This document shows positions 1,959 to 25,463 of a stretch of 64,000 nucleotides of DNA, piece after piece (the stretch's first letter is position 1; every line of letters starts with the position of its first letter). The stretch comes from Berberis thunbergii (lineage: Eukaryota > Streptophyta > Magnoliopsida > Ranunculales > Berberidaceae), in the NCBI GenBank assembly GCA_003290165.1, contig QNQO01000550.1:186001-250000 (forward strand), in the 5' to 3' direction. The notes under the pieces were generated by a model. That model made no database searches. It was given only the letters and a program-made list of their open reading frames with translations, and was not told the DNA's origin. The translations under genes were made by a program, and so were the position numbers.

Positions 1959-2500
1959 TGATGATACACCAAAACGGTTTCTCTTCCACGCCGTATACGT
2001 GTCACAATGATTTCAAGGAATAATAGACTCGAGCATTAGTCCAACACTGCTCCGGCCCAAGCCCGCACAGCGCAGTCTGCCAGACAAACCCGAAATCATT
2101 ACAACCTACTAAGCCCAGACGTCTCACAATTATCCTCAATACCCGTAACCATCTCAAGGATCAGCTTCAGACAGGCAAGATAGCAGCGCTTTGCTTCCAA
2201 CTAGGAAGCAAATTCCAGAGTATATATTACACATGGGGACTTTTATCTATGGACTACTCTCGGAACGTGAACTATCACCTGCGTATTTAGCACTATAAAT
2301 AAAACATGAGGTTGGTAAGCTAAGGTATGTTACAAATTATCTGTTTACAACATTACGCCTTCCTCAGATCCTTGTATGACTTTAGCATTGGAATGCCATC
2401 AGCCACCATAACGGTGGTCCGTGGTTCACGTGCGTTCCTTGTGCAGGTCAGCAGGTTTGCAGGTCAAGGTCAAACCAGGGAGCAAAAATCGACTGCATCA
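1959..2500 (+). repeat. 5' LTR of E0
   Basis: Starts TGATGATACA and ends GACTGCATCA (inverted ends TGATG/CATCA), 542 bp. A TATA box TATAAATA is at 2294-2301. The next bases, gtttggcgccgtccgtg (2501-2517), are the primer-binding site, with the TTGGCGCCGTC core used by Tat-lineage elements. The five bases before the LTR are gccac; the matching right copy was lost with the 3' end. Confidence 0.87.
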
Positions 2501-2574
2501 GTTTGGCGCCGTCCGTGTAGACGACAAAGTTCCTAACCTTTCACTAGCATCACCTATTTACAAAATACAAAGAG

Positions 2575-2994
2575 ATGGTGACCATCAGATCATGCAACAT
2601 AGAAGAACAAGGGGGTACGTCAAACGCTCAGCCTAGCGTTACTTCACCGCTCTCGACGGTGCAAGCAATGCACAGACAACAAGCTCATGCTCCTGGAATA
2701 GCAACAACAATGACGGACCCCGAAACAGACCCAAGATCACTTTTTATACATCAAATCCTACTGACGATGAATACGCTCAAGTCGGTGAAACAAAATCCTG
2801 ACGAGACACTGAAGGCGTACCTAAAATGCTTCAGCAGTGATTTGACATCCATCAACGTGTGCAACGACCCAACGGCCTTCCCACCCTTCATTGACAGTTT
2901 GAGTAAAGGAAAGTTCTACAACTTCTTAACTCTGGATCCACCAGCAAACATGGCGGACTTGACGAAGGAAGCACAAATATACAACTCCCTATAG
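2575..2994 (+). pseudogene. Gag remnant of E0
   Basis: The frame opens 74 bp after the primer-binding site with MVTIRSCNIEEQGG and runs 139 codons. The C-terminal half matches Retrotrans_gag: MNTLKSVKQNPDETLKAYLK, then PFIDSLSKGKFYNFLTLDPP and the closing MADLTKEAQIY. The N-terminal half of the domain is missing, so the start of gag has been joined to its middle by an internal deletion. A stop follows the domain, where intact elements continue to the zinc knuckle. Residual capsid function is unlikely. Confidence 0.75.
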
Positions 2995-3058
2995 GAAGAA
3001 TGAACATGAGTAAATCCGGGCCCAATTACAAATCCACCGACAAAAGGGGAAAAAAGAA

Positions 3059-3545
3059 TTGGTGGCAGTAATATACATGCTTCATGAGGCGCACTCCGAG
3101 TCTGAACTATCAAACATGTCCAGAAAAAGGGATCTTACGGATATGAGGGTCCAAGCAATACACAACAAACAACTAACACCGCACACCCAAAGGCATGACC
3201 ACCCCATGCCACAAGCCTTTACAAACAAAGACCTCCAGGGCATCCAATTCCCACATAATAACGCCCTAGTAATAACGATCTCCCTGGCAAACTGGGAAGT
3301 AAGGAGGTCTTTGGTGGACATTGGAAGTTCTTTGAACATCCCGTTTCTCCACACGTTGCGCAACATGCAACTAAAGGAAAAAACACTGACCCCCGATAAC
3401 CGTCCTATGATCGATTTCAACAGCGAAAAACACTTTTGGTAGTAAAAATACAATTAACAGCAGTAGCAGGAGAGAAACCGACTCAAAAAACTATATTTCA
3501 AGAGTTCACAGTGATTGATGCACCTTTAGCATATAATGTTGTCCT
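3059..3545 (+). pseudogene. Retropepsin (protease) remnant of E0
   Basis: The frame 3059-3442 carries FTNKDLQGIQFPHNNALVIT and then WEVRRSLVDIGSSLNI, the gypsy aspartic-protease segment whose active site is normally DTGSS. Here it reads DIGSS, so the Thr is lost although the Asp remains. The domain continues after a +1 shift (about 3440-3540) with a frame ending in DAPLAYNVVL, the conserved second half. One frameshift and an altered active site make it inactive. Confidence 0.75.
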
Positions 3546-6540: not shown

Positions 6541-6922
6541 AGTGATGAGCAAACTAAGTTTTAATTAAGGTTCCTCAAGCCTATAAAATAAAATAAAATA
6601 CCAACCAATAAGTTACAAACGTTCATAAAGTTTGCCTCTCGCATCATAATACAATCTTTTTGAGACATAAATTGTGCCTAATTTAGGGATGGCCATGAAT
6701 TGTGTTTGGTTCCTTTTTTATCGAACCAAGAAATTGATTATAGTGCCTCAGCTTTGGGTGTACCTGAATCATGAGTCTCATGGGTGTTCAAAATCGACTC
6801 GCCAAAACCCATAAACTATTTTTTGACATTTTTTCACACATGTTTTTATACGTTAAATTACAAATAAGAACAAAATAAAATGTAGTTTGACTCTTAACTC
6901 CAAGAGTTTTGAATGTATAATA

Positions 6923-7986
6923 TAGGGGTGGGCATTTAGGACCGAAAACCCGAACCGAACCGACAACCGGACCGATCGGGTCGGTTCGGATCGGTTATAA
7001 TTAATTAAAAAAATTTCGGTTGTAAAAGCCCGGCCAGGCCCGAAGTTTCTGGTCCGGGCCTTGGTTTCCATTTCTGAAACCCGTCGGTTAACCGGCCCGA
7101 CCCATTTTAAATAGCTAACTTAAAATGGAAACCCATCGACTACCTCCTCCCTCTCCCTCTCACAGCGAAGTCCCTCCCTCCCTCACCTCTCCCTCTCCTC
7201 TCCTTCTCACAGCTCCCTCTCCCTCTCACAGCGAAGTCCCTCCCTCCCTCACCTCTCCCTCTCCTCTCCTCCTCACGGCTTCCTCTCCCTCTCACAGCGA
7301 AGTCCCTCCGCGAAGCATCGACCATCGACCACGAAGCATCGACCGCCGCCTCCCTCTCCTCTCCCTCTCACAGCGAATCAACGACTCGACCTCCTCCCTC
7401 TCCTCTCCCTCTCAGCTCACAGCGAAGCATCGACCACTCCTCTCCCTCTCACAGCAAAGCATCCAGTAAAGCATCCCTCAGAGAGCATCCAGCGAAGCAT
7501 CCCTCTCACAGCGAAGATCGACCGTTCCTCTCCCTCTTACAGTGAAGATCGACCACTCCTCTCCCTCTCAGATCTGATCTCATATCTGGTCTCAGATCTT
7601 GATCTTTATCAGATCTGATCTTTATCATATTTGATTTTTGATCATATCAGATCTAATTACGATGAATGTATTTTTTTTTGTAATTTTTTTTAAATTTGTT
7701 CTATTGTTTTTTTTTTTTGTAATTTTTATATTGTATTTTTTTTATTGTACGATGATCTGTAATTTTTTGTAATTTATTGTACGATGATCAGTATATATAT
7801 ATTTTTTTTACTGTAGATATTTTTTTGCTTTCAGAACCGAAACCGGCCCGTAATTCGGTTACCCGGTACCTCGGTTATCCGGTGAACTCGGTCCGGTTTC
7901 GGTTCTCATAAACACGGGCCCGAATTTTTTGGGCCAGTTTTCGGTTATTAGTTTTTGGGTCGGTTACCCGTACTTGCCCAGCCCTA
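6923..7986. mobile_element. Non-autonomous hAT-type element hAT-1
   Basis: Ends are TAGGGGTGGGCA and TGCCCAGCCCTA, 12-bp terminal inverted repeats with one mismatch. Flanking 8-mers are gtataata and atataata, an 8-bp duplication with one change. The other copy of segment R (near 21965, reverse strand) has one uninterrupted gtataata and serves as the empty site. The subterminal regions are rich in gaaccgaacc/ggttcggtt motifs. The centre is a pyrimidine-rich minisatellite and a poly-T tract. No transposase was seen; length 1064 bp. Confidence 0.9.
7143..7570. repeat. Pyrimidine-rich minisatellite inside hAT-1
   Basis: Irregular copies of ccctctcacagcgaagtccc and cctccctcacctctccctct, later drifting to agcatcgaccactcctctcc. 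The repeat is open in several frames and gives long low-complexity translations rich in Ser and Pro; these are not genes. Confidence 0.85.
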
Positions 7987-21931: not shown

Positions 21932-22059
21932 GTTTATATGGTTATCTTTGTGATGCTCATGTATTATACATTCAAACACTACACCAAATTTCCACATCAG
22001 CAACGGTTTGGAACCGTGGGGGTAATTGATGGCCACGGCTAAAAGGCGTGGGCTGCAGA

Positions 22060-22290
22060 GGCGTCGCGAAATCATCCGTGATGGCTATAAACCGTTGCTA
22101 AAATTTTAGCAAAGGTTTTATATTCAGGACGGTTGATGCTTTAGCCACGGTTCTAAACCGTTGCTAAAAGTTTAGCAGCGGTTTTAAGCCGTGGCAAGTA
22201 TTAGCAACGGCTTAAAACCGTGGCCAGACTTGCCATGGCTTAAAACCGTTGCTAAAATTTTAGCCACGGTTTTAAGCCGTGGCTAGTAAA
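22060..22290. repeat. Left subterminal repeats of CACTA-1
   Basis: Six to seven diverged copies of a near-palindrome of the form (a)gccacggttttaaaccgttgc, alternating orientation, for example agccacggttctaaaccgtt. The core ACGGTTTTAAACCGT is self-complementary. Subterminal repeats of En/Spm-type elements are transposase-binding sites; that function is inferred here. Confidence 0.82.
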
Positions 22291-22761
22291 AAAATTCAAT
22301 TTTTTTTGTCACGGTGTTAAGCCAATGCAGTTCTACTGACAGTGATGCAATACAGGCAATGAAGAGAAATTACAGACTAAAGAACTTGTAATTGTAATTC
22401 TGGATTGATGACAGTAAATGGAATGGATTGTATTCAATAAGAAAGCTAATTCGAGATAGCTAATCTCCTGTAGAGCAAATGCTCAAGTGTACAATTTTCT
22501 TACAAATCAAATGAATCCTTTTTTTTCTCTTATTTATAGTACTACATTTATTGACAACTTGTCTCAGTGTTGATGATTCTTTGCACTAATCAGTCGATCT
22601 AGCAGTTCGAAAGAAACAAAAATATAAATTATTCAAGTAAAGGAATACCTTGCGTAACAACATTATGAAGAAGAGATCATCACGCCAGACAACACCAATT
22701 AGTTTACAAGAACTGAAAACATGAAACCTAGGAAGAATGACCACTCAAGCAGCTTACTTAC

Positions 22762-22945
22762 CACATTTATTGCAGTGGATGAAGTTCTCTTCACCTCCGA
22801 TTCTGTAACAGCAAAAACATAAGATAAAAAACTTCAAATTATTCAAATTTTGAATAATTACTACAAAAAACATTGTATGGAACAAGGATAGAGGATTCAA
22901 CCTGCAAACTCCACATCCATCACAATGAAATTGCTTCTTTGAAAC
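22762..22945 (-). pseudogene. Captured exons of a CHY/CTCHY-RING zinc-finger (CHYR/RZFP34-like) gene
   Basis: Two exon pieces survive. Exon 22902-22945 encodes VSKKQFHCDGCGVC; the intron of about 99 bp starts with gt and ends with ag; exon 22762-22802 encodes RIGGEENFIHCNKC and is followed by a gtaagt donor. This is the CTCHY zinc-finger segment of plant CHYR E3 ubiquitin ligases (DDCGICRVGGxENFFHC in known members), with the metal-binding Cys and His intact. The flanking CHY and RING parts are absent, so it cannot make the ligase. Retained introns show capture at the DNA level. Confidence 0.82.
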
Positions 22946-23626
22946 CTGAAACCCAAACCAGATTGTCAGCTATGTAAATTGTTCATTCCTGAAAAACTAA
23001 TACTGTTTCTAAGTGAATGTCTTAAAACCAAATGTTGCCTAAAGAGTTGCAAGGTGAGTAGAGAGGCAGATTCTACAGTTTTCACAGGAGGAACAAATCT
23101 AGATTACAGAAACATAAGAGCAATCATGAGAGAAACTACACACACATTATAGAGACTTGTATAATCAATTATAGACATCTACTAAAAGAGAGGACTTTTG
23201 TTTGCTATAAAATTATATGCACTGTCCAAATTTTCATAGTTAAAATGAATTTTAAATCTTAAGAGTAGTCCACTTTTCATATTAAAATCGAAGTCTAAAG
23301 CTTAAATTTTCCCAACCCATGGATATAACATATTGCTGTTGAGGCCAATTGAGTATATGTTTCTTTGTTTCATTACCTCTTTTGCAATTAAGCTAAAAAA
23401 CATTTAAACCAATTAAGATAGAATACCCAAATGATCATGCTCATAACAATACAAACACACAAACATGGCTAAAGAATACTATTGAGTAAATCATGTTGAT
23501 GGTCTATACATAGTAGCATACTCAAATCCCTCCAATTGAAATGTTCCCTTGTACATAATAAACATTAGTGCTTAACAAAAGTCTCTAAAAAATTAAAGAA
23601 GACCCTATACTCACCAAGTAGTTCTT

Positions 23627-23732
23627 CTACTGCTTCTTCAATAATAGCAAAGGACCAACATTATCTCCAGTGTCTTTGTTGTGCTTCACATGAGTTCCAT
23701 CACATAGAGGAAATGTACCTGACCTCCAACAG
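23627..23732 (-). pseudogene. Captured last exon of a NEET (CDGSH iron-sulfur) protein gene
   Basis: After an acceptor (ggcag) the frame reads [20 protein letters not shown], then [14 protein letters not shown] and a stop. It matches the C-terminal exon of the plant NEET protein, a 2Fe-2S protein of chloroplasts and mitochondria. The CDGxH cluster motif (CDGTH) and the C-terminal KKQ are intact, with one extra Leu before KKQ. The N-terminal transit peptide and the first cluster Cys lie in exons that were not captured, so no functional protein is expected from this piece alone. Confidence 0.87.
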
Positions 23733-23950
23733 CTGCCAAACACCCCAACACCCCAATTAGAATCTCACCCATATGTTTCACAATCCAATGAGGCATTGAA
23801 CAAAGACAGAAAATGAGAGAATGTTAAATAGTTTGCCTGTTGTTTTGAGTGGTTATCTTAGTCTTTTTCTTCTCCTCTTCAAAAATCAAGCTTGAGAAAA
23901 GAAGAAAGTGAGTTCTAGGGTTTGCTTTGCTGAAAGAAGAAAAAAAATTT

Positions 23951-25114
23951 GAAACAGATCTGAAGAAGAAGAAGAGATCTAAAGAAGAAGAAGGATCTTA
24001 CCTTCAAGGAGATCTGAACCAATTTGATGCTCTTCTTCAGCTCGATTCTCTCTATTTCACTTCTTTCTTATTTTTTTGCAGTGGAATTTCAACACTATCC
24101 TCAAAAGGTATATTTACTAAATTACATTTTTAATAAAATTAATAACCAGTCATGAACATCATCCTCATTGTACTCATCTTCCTTTATATATTTCACTCAA
24201 ATCTTACCTGAACATCATCCTCATAGTTTCATTTTTACATGGGTATTCCAAATTTTGTATCGTAAATTTTCTTTCTCCTTGCTCGTAACATATTTGAATT
24301 GTATATTCTTAACATGAACAAATCTCAATATTTCGACATTACTGAAGAGTCTCTAAGGACAAAAATTAAAGCTTTCCAGCATATACATTCTAATCTTAGA
24401 ATAGCTTAAACCATCCAAGTAGCTAAACCCAGTAAATGAAGTTGTAAATTCCCAAACTACTACTCTAAATATATTCACTTTCCAAGAAAGGAAACACCTC
24501 ATATACAATATTTTAATACTGAGACTAACTAGAACCCTAAACGGATGACAACCTAATTCAATTCAAGCAAAAGTAAGGATCCTCAAATAAAAATAACTTT
24601 CCAAGACATCAAAATTTCCCAAGTTGAAAATCCACTCACAAGAATCATGATTGAAATTGAACAACAGAAGAAAAAACTCAACTTGATAGTAATGAAATAA
24701 CCGAAGATAAAACCAAGAATGAAAAAAAAAACTACCTTGTGATCTCCTCCACCAGTTGCAAACCTGATGCCACCAGGTTGAATATCAATGGAGAAAATCT
24801 GCATTCCTTCATGCCTAACCCAACCTGGCTTCTCTGCAATCATCTTTGCTTCTGGGTATCTAAAATCCCACTTATTTTTCACTTTCCTGCACTCAAAGAA
24901 CAAAAGGGTACTCAAATCCCATGGTTTGGGATCAAAATAGGAAATGGGGTCATCAGAGAAAAACTTATAAAGGTCAAATTTTGTGTGGGTTCTTGAAGGA
25001 TTTTGTTCTCTTGAAACAGATCTGAAGAAGAATAAGAGATCTAAAGAAGAAGAAGGATCTTACCTGGAAGGAGATCTGAACCAATTTGATGTTCTTCTTC
25101 AGCTCGATTTTCTC
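23951..25114. repeat. 102-bp direct duplication inside CACTA-1 (23951-24052 and 25013-25114)
   Basis: Both copies begin gaaacagatctgaagaag and end agctcgattntctc, with only a few differences over 102 bp. They flank the captured HIRA exon and its surroundings. The sequence is rich in gaagaagaag. It could be a remnant of how the HIRA piece was acquired or a duplicated untranslated exon; it has no recognisable coding content. Confidence 0.8.
24736..24843 (-). pseudogene. Captured first coding exon of HIRA (WD40 histone H3.3 chaperone)
   Basis: ATG at 24843 (minus strand) opens [20 protein letters not shown], continuing [16 protein letters not shown] for 36 codons up to a gtag donor. This is the start of plant HIRA, whose WD40 propeller begins with [20 protein letters not shown]. 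The start codon and donor site are intact. The frame runs past the donor into low-complexity sequence, and the next HIRA exon was not seen. About 130 bp upstream on the minus strand may be HIRA 5' UTR. Confidence 0.88.
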
Positions 25115-25274
25115 AAGATCTAAAGAAGAAGAAGGAGAAGAAAAGTTTGAGAATCTGCTTCGGTTCTTCATGTTCTTCTTTAGTTCGTCCTCTCCTTCTT
25201 TCGTCCTTCTCCAAAGCGGGAAACTGCTCCCTCCAAAGTGCGAAAGAATTTTCGCCAAAGCGCGAAAGTGATTG

Positions 25275-25435
25275 GTCTTATAGCTACGGTTTTAAACCGT
25301 TGGTAGTTATAGCCACGGTTTAAAACCGTAGCAATCCTTTTGGTGTAGTGTTTTTTGGCCACGGTTTTACTTTTTAGCCACGGTTTTAAACCGTTGGCCG
25401 TTATAGCCACGATTTTTAGCCGTGGCCACCTCCCC
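25275..25435. repeat. Right subterminal repeats of CACTA-1 with an internal terminus
   Basis: About five copies of the tagccacggttttaaaccgt motif. Between them, ccttttggtgtagtg ends at 25351, an exact copy of the true terminus ending at 25463. The right end therefore carries two potential cut sites 112 bp apart. Confidence 0.8.
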
Positions 25436-25463
25436 GTAGCTAAACATGCCTTTTGGTGTAGTG

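Follow-up and report, generated by a model that had tools for sequence, protein, structure and literature searches.

Within a 64,000-bp stretch of the Berberis thunbergii genome (the window; C550:186001-250000), we identified a non-autonomous CACTA-type element that carries pieces of the host genes HIRA, NEET and CHYR. The best explanation overall, which we consider very probable, is serial capture: host-gene fragments would have been acquired one after another by such an element, and successive versions of it would have been amplified through transposition. A sequence-only reading of the window had proposed one CACTA element with this cargo. The element itself proved to be real, but it does not stand as a single case, since on sequence comparison it belongs to a family that is present in many copies and carries further cargo.

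The element begins with CACTACACCAAATT and ends with TTTTGGTGTAGTG (Table 1). Its termini are the inverted repeats CACTA...TAGTG of the CACTA superfamily, as are those of a 14.2-kb relative on C37, and short subterminal repeats are present in both orientations. AAA flanks the element on each side, and a diverged copy of the flank, located on the minus strand at approximately 6901-6915 of the same window, carries the empty site CATTCAAAACTC with one AAA, in agreement with the CACTA ends and 3-bp duplication reported from the letters. The 3-bp duplications matched in all three copies with both ends located (window, AAA; C4912, ATC; C37, TAG); for two further copies, L043 and L044, no left end was located within the sequence stretches examined. 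The left end of the C4912 copy (L042) starts with TACTACACC and not CACTACACC, a mutated first base, and the ATC duplication is retained. This insertion was also detected, with matching flanks, on C8322 (99.5% over 6.5 kb), which is most likely the other haplotype of the window locus; the 2.24-Gb assembly often holds two near-identical contigs per locus, as seen in the four pairs compared. Close to the empty CACTA site, at a distance of a few bases, an insertion of about 1,064 bp (TAGGGCTGGGCA...TGCCCACCCCTA, window 6923-7986), which we take to be hAT-like, sits in a copy of the flank repeat with the flank duplication TATTATAT/TATTATAC (7 of 8 positions matching).

In six-frame Pfam scans (E up to 0.05), neither the window element nor the 14.2-kb copy matched any transposase family. 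A CACTA element of this kind would be mobilised by a TNP2-type transposase from an autonomous relative sharing its ends. PF02992 matched at 150 of 150 scored candidates, out of 7809, and an autonomous partner was not found by this route among the two of these 150 loci that were fetched, neither of which matched the element ends or the window. The gene-capturing Helitrons of maize hold several gene fragments and show stepwise capture, as is likely for the window element, but Helitrons are not known to have inverted terminal repeats or a target-site duplication, whereas both are present in the window element, the duplication being 3 bp long.

Table 1. Features of the CACTA-type element and its unoccupied target site, in window positions
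Feature	Position	Strand	Remarks
Non-autonomous CACTA-type element	21977..25463	.	3,487 bp; terminal CACTACACC/GGTGTAGTG and subterminal repeats
Target-site duplication, left copy AAA	21974..21976	.	single AAA in empty site
Target-site duplication, right copy AAA	25464..25466	.	compared with empty site
Paralogous unoccupied target site CATTCAAAACTCTTG	6901..6915	-	within same window
Left terminal and subterminal region	21977..22559	.	related (77%) to left end of 14.2-kb copy on C37
Captured CHYR (RCHY1-type) fragment, exons and introns	22647..22985	-	92-93% to L028/L029 (C1039/C2649), 342 bp
CHYR exon b	22762..22802	-	AG...GT
CHYR exon a	22902..22945	-	AG...GT
Captured NEET fragment	22980..23806	-	87% to C645 (L068+L050), two pieces (714 bp, 133 bp)
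NEET last coding exon (CDGSH C-terminus, stop, 3'UTR start)	23615..23732	-	AG...GT; protein comparison
104-bp repeat, left copy	23949..24052	.	95% to 25011-25114; minus-strand GGTAAG, splice-donor-like
Captured HIRA fragment	24046..25016	-	exon 1 with about 174 bp upstream of ATG and about 690 bp of intron 1
HIRA exon 1, ATG to splice donor	24736..24843	-	36/36 residues identical to C649 exon 1
104-bp repeat, right copy	25011..25114	.	one element segment present twice, flanking HIRA
Right subterminal repeats and end	25207..25463	.	second end-like motif inside, ending at 25350

The cargo, on the minus strand of the element, comprises the first exon of HIRA, the final coding exon of NEET and a pair of CHYR exons, introns included. 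The HIRA start was located exactly where the sequence-only reading had put it, with its ATG and donor GT kept. The CDGSH C-terminus given there (23627-23732) is the coding part of a slightly longer NEET exon, and the CHY/CTCHY group (22762-22945), correctly placed, was resolved into two exons. In the window copy, the NEET exon and both CHYR exons are preceded by AG and followed by GT, and the HIRA exon is followed by GT. The NEET and CHYR fragments overlap by about 6 bp (element 1004-1009), with no element sequence between them. When joined, the CHYR exons of the window matched RCHY1 structures (best E 1.2e-8), and one CHYR gene locus (L029) carries PF14599. The window element itself gave a zf-CDGSH match (E 0.00068) under the curated Pfam cut-off, and the corresponding exon of the closest NEET gene, one leucine shorter than that of the window, matched the Arabidopsis NEET protein At5g51720 (E 1.3e-18). 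The structure search with the HIRA peptide gave no informative match (best ERB1, E 0.045), so the identity of this exon rests on the locus on C649, where HIRA WD40 exons and, above cut-off, the Hira domain PF07569 are likewise present.

The closest genes were located on three different contigs. The closest HIRA gene found (L048 on C649) matched over 973 bp at 96.5% (element 2070-3040), covering exon 1 and part of intron 1, while two other HIRA-like loci, L047 and L049, matched the exon alone (123 bp, 83.7 and 84.6%) and a further one, L046, showed no HIRA match in the upstream stretch fetched; this comparison used the exon-1 region of four HIRA-like loci, with C2, C240, C316 and C2306 among those left out. 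Among 20 CHYR-family loci fetched, the closest gene, on C1039/C2649, matched over 342 bp at 92-93% (element 671-1009) and the next gene at 81%, together accounting for four of the 20. A CDGSH-domain family search of the genome gave two places only, both of them element copies, and a protein query was therefore used for NEET. In the comparison of two NEET gene contigs, the closest gene found (C645/C4301) matched at 87% over 847 bp, split into 714 and 133 bp (element 1004-1830), and in the gene the preceding exon adjoins the matched region. The C645 gene has about 360 bp extra between the matched pieces, absent from all three elements compared (window, L044 and L041), which was perhaps inserted after capture. 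Chance does not account for gene matches as long as these (342 to 973 bp). The closest genes found may not be the true donors. Because the fragments include introns, capture took place at the DNA level. As is typical of Pack-CACTA elements, the host sequence captured by the element has gene relatives at other places in the genome. The claim of three unrelated host genes was upheld when intact genes were searched for and compared in exons and introns. Neither of the outcomes named as speaking against it was seen: the exons fitted no other protein family better, and the closest genes did not lie together on one contig.

Copies with matching cargo, for which the sequence-only reading had suggested a search, were found at 40 of 40 scored places (of 10838 first-look candidates), 22 with and 18 without a HIRA match, allelic pairs being counted separately. 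Of 480 candidates for the NEET exon, 150 were scored and all of them matched, the NEET gene being one. Expressed as means corrected for copy-to-copy divergence, the approximate noncoding distances (K) from founder to gene were 0.017 for HIRA (7 copies), 0.045 for CHYR (19 copies) and 0.077 for NEET (19 copies). Copy-to-copy distances were similar among the fragments (0.0255 to 0.0276) and look as they would after one burst. We then placed 19 copies, known allelic partners left out, on a tree of element positions 639-1972 with the NEET gene as outgroup. The seven copies with HIRA formed a single clade (97/98) beside 12 HIRA-less rows, which represent 11 loci because L044 and L053 proved to be alleles. 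The first-branching copy, L043, is without HIRA, and the split setting it apart was supported at 85/84; two of the 17 inner branches were starred. These distances and the tree indicate that HIRA was most likely acquired last, and once, by an element already holding NEET and CHYR, and that the three gene pieces were most likely captured at different times. Serial capture, one of two routes offered by the sequence-only reading, is supported by the three contigs, the differing distances and the single addition of HIRA on the tree.

One segment of the element, 104 bp in length, flanks the HIRA fragment on both sides. This segment is single in all 12 HIRA-less rows of the tree set and double in six of the seven rows with HIRA, three of the six left copies being shortened to 80-81 bp; the remaining HIRA-bearing copy, L019, has lost its left repeat. 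The repeat copies of HIRA-bearing elements carry GATT (13/13) where HIRA-less elements carry GGTT (12/12), and GATG (12/13) where HIRA-less elements carry CATG (12/12). Based on alignment with the HIRA gene and the HIRA-less copies, the junctions share TTGAAA (6 bp) at the right and about two bases at the left. In these comparisons, the HIRA piece looks to have been inserted into an intact element, a short part of which was duplicated, and the before-state of this recipient is kept in the HIRA-less copies. The GGTAAG site of the 104-bp segment is perhaps a putative donor of the element's own first exon.

The scar at HIRA would be explained most simply by break repair with template switching, which we regard as the probable capture step. 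The HIRA piece would have been copied in while a break inside the element was repaired, with template switching to the HIRA gene at short microhomology (6 bp at one junction and about 2 bp at the other), and the broken ends would have been extended about 104 bp past each other. The published Pack-CACTA model (Catoni et al. 2019, as described in parts of PMC13317346 and PMC8903248) would instead have two sibling elements on either side of HIRA exon 1, with the inner ends lost and the outer ends moved as a unit. This fusion, which we consider a rather unlikely but serious competitor, predicts host DNA between two parts of one element family, as observed around HIRA, and the inner end-like motif at 25350 together with an inner CACTA left end in the C37 copy (L045:7000) suggests that fusions may occur in the family. 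However, the recipient is retained on both sides of HIRA except for the 104-bp overlap, and so small an offset is expected in only about 1.5 to 6% of cases, as estimated for independent uniform breakpoints over 3.5 to 14 kb. The fused elements would also need to be close siblings, because the repeat copies share states absent from HIRA-less copies, and the abutment of CHYR and NEET, with no element sequence between, is likewise unfavourable to fusion.

The remaining alternatives concern the order of events. That HIRA, NEET and CHYR lie side by side in one orientation could reflect a single event taking all three from a pre-existing chimeric locus, such as a Helitron or a rearranged cluster; we consider this very unlikely, and the least credible of the readings, given closest genes on three contigs at three distances, and HIRA missing from copies with NEET and CHYR and confined to one clade. 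It is also very unlikely, if marginally less so, that the HIRA-less copies are secondary deletions produced by recombination between the 104-bp repeats. Direct repeats can recombine, and L019 did lose one repeat copy, but the single repeats in 12 of 12 HIRA-less rows are without the states common to both repeat copies of HIRA-bearing elements, and the latter form one clade, both of which are opposed to deletion.

The cargo would be a passenger under no selection for function, from which chimeric RNAs might arise by splicing. As a first exon, HIRA exon 1 is assumed to have no working acceptor, and so could only start a transcript. As read from the letters, the end of HIRA exon 1 is in phase 0; when joined to CHYR exon a the frame is kept, and when joined to the NEET exon the frame shifts and a stop follows after ten residues. 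The in-frame join would suit a chimeric protein or transcript under selection, as would the conservation of splice donors in 19/19 copies (CHYR a, CHYR b and NEET) and 7/7 copies (HIRA) and a nominally lower diversity of the HIRA exon than of noncoding sequence (0.018 versus 0.027). Such a selected product is nevertheless very unlikely: the CHYR exons (0.034 versus 0.026) and the NEET exon (0.038 versus 0.025) are nominally more diverse than noncoding sequence, acceptors are kept in only 16/19 (CHYR a), 18/19 (CHYR b) and 18/19 (NEET) copies, and the HIRA-to-NEET join breaks the frame. In permutations of exon versus noncoding diversity across copies (19 for CHYR and NEET, 7 for HIRA), the fractions as low as observed were 0.85 for CHYR, 0.93 for NEET and 0.16 for HIRA; no difference was significant and thus no exon constraint was detected.

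The copy on C37 (L045) measures 14,193 bp between its ends and is flanked by TAG duplications. Of this structure, the window element retains the right half together with a left end that is related at 77%; it may be a shortened form from which most left-hand cargo has disappeared. In six-frame Pfam scans (E up to 0.05), the minus strand of the C37 copy showed GDSL lipase, Ras, CDGSH, SOSEKI and DOG1 domains, with Ras, CDGSH and one of two GDSL models under the curated cut-off, and its plus strand showed no domain. The left 760 bp of L003 gave a HECT match just below cut-off, on the minus strand only of six frames, so that all six fragments scanned on both strands (GDSL, Ras, CDGSH, SOSEKI, DOG1 and HECT) lie on one strand. 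Four further matches come from minus-strand translations only and were kept out of this count: SEC14-like (E 1.2e-12), Rab2 (E 4.1e-10, the same piece as Ras), a HECT piece of L041 (E 0.011) and a weak ribosomal protein L1 (E 0.088). For the SOSEKI/DOG1 part, 40 of 3958 candidates were scored, and these gave matches on 40 contigs. Two below-cut-off minus-strand matches, DUF3325 in the C37 scan (E 0.036) and Ni_hydr_CYTB in L042 (E 0.029; only minus frames scanned), were dropped as chance.

Other traces of rearrangement were observed in the family. The second CACTA left end inside the C37 copy (L045:7000) has the flank ATA, with no matching right end found, and may be what is left of an element that was fused or nested. 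In positions 1-760, L003 retains a longer piece of the HECT gene, where L041-type copies switch to Rab2, and this difference suggests that the HECT fragment later underwent a replacement or a capture within it. No structure match was obtained with a peptide of the left part of L003; Pfam has HECT on either side of the break. A 73-bp direct repeat (98.6%) surrounds the SOSEKI segment of the C37 copy (element positions 1286-1358 and 3150-3222). It was considered as a second capture scar and rejected, as it sits within a DOG1-type coding piece that continues on one side, and is more likely a templated copy.

Elements rich in gene fragments are already known in the CACTA superfamily (Tgm-Express1, Pack-CACTA), and the window element is of that kind. 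Tgm-Express1 of soybean, as portrayed in parts of PMC1947982, likewise carries unrelated host gene fragments, five in number, with exonic and intronic sequence usable as cassette exons, and chimeric transcripts starting at the host F3H promoter were observed. The Berberis element differs from Tgm-Express1 in that its capture order and one scar are resolved across many copies. Pack-CACTA and other Pack-TYPE elements resemble it in being non-autonomous, in carrying coding DNA from several loci and in occurring as versions with and without an insert within a family (PMC8903248, section 9; PMC13317346, in part), but the mechanism proposed there is fusion of neighbouring copies, whereas our element has the recipient kept on both sides and a 104-bp duplication. 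The CACTA-like Jozin elements of Chenopodium share the capture of host gene fragments, described in parts of PMC8978399 as 80-bp AP2 fragments outside coding sequence; these elements have transposase domains, unlike the window element, in which no transposase match was found.

How DNA transposons capture pieces of unlinked genes remains an unsettled question, and section 7 of a 2026 review (PMC13317346) leaves room for a mechanism not yet discovered, in addition to the fusion of neighbouring elements. The HIRA event bears on this question, as it can be read base by base, from the closest gene and the recipient without and with the insert to both junctions and the place on the tree. The useful part is this scar with its preserved before-state, the kind of element being known already. 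With cargo at 40 of 40 scored places and several layers of cargo, the family could yield a series of captures in one genome. We give even weight for and against a general proposal: that transposons capture unlinked genes by template-switching break repair, leaving a recipient duplication of about 100 bp around the insert, with the fragments in one orientation, perhaps owing to the element's transcription. If true, template-switch capture with its before and after states would show a route to gene capture other than the fusion of neighbours.
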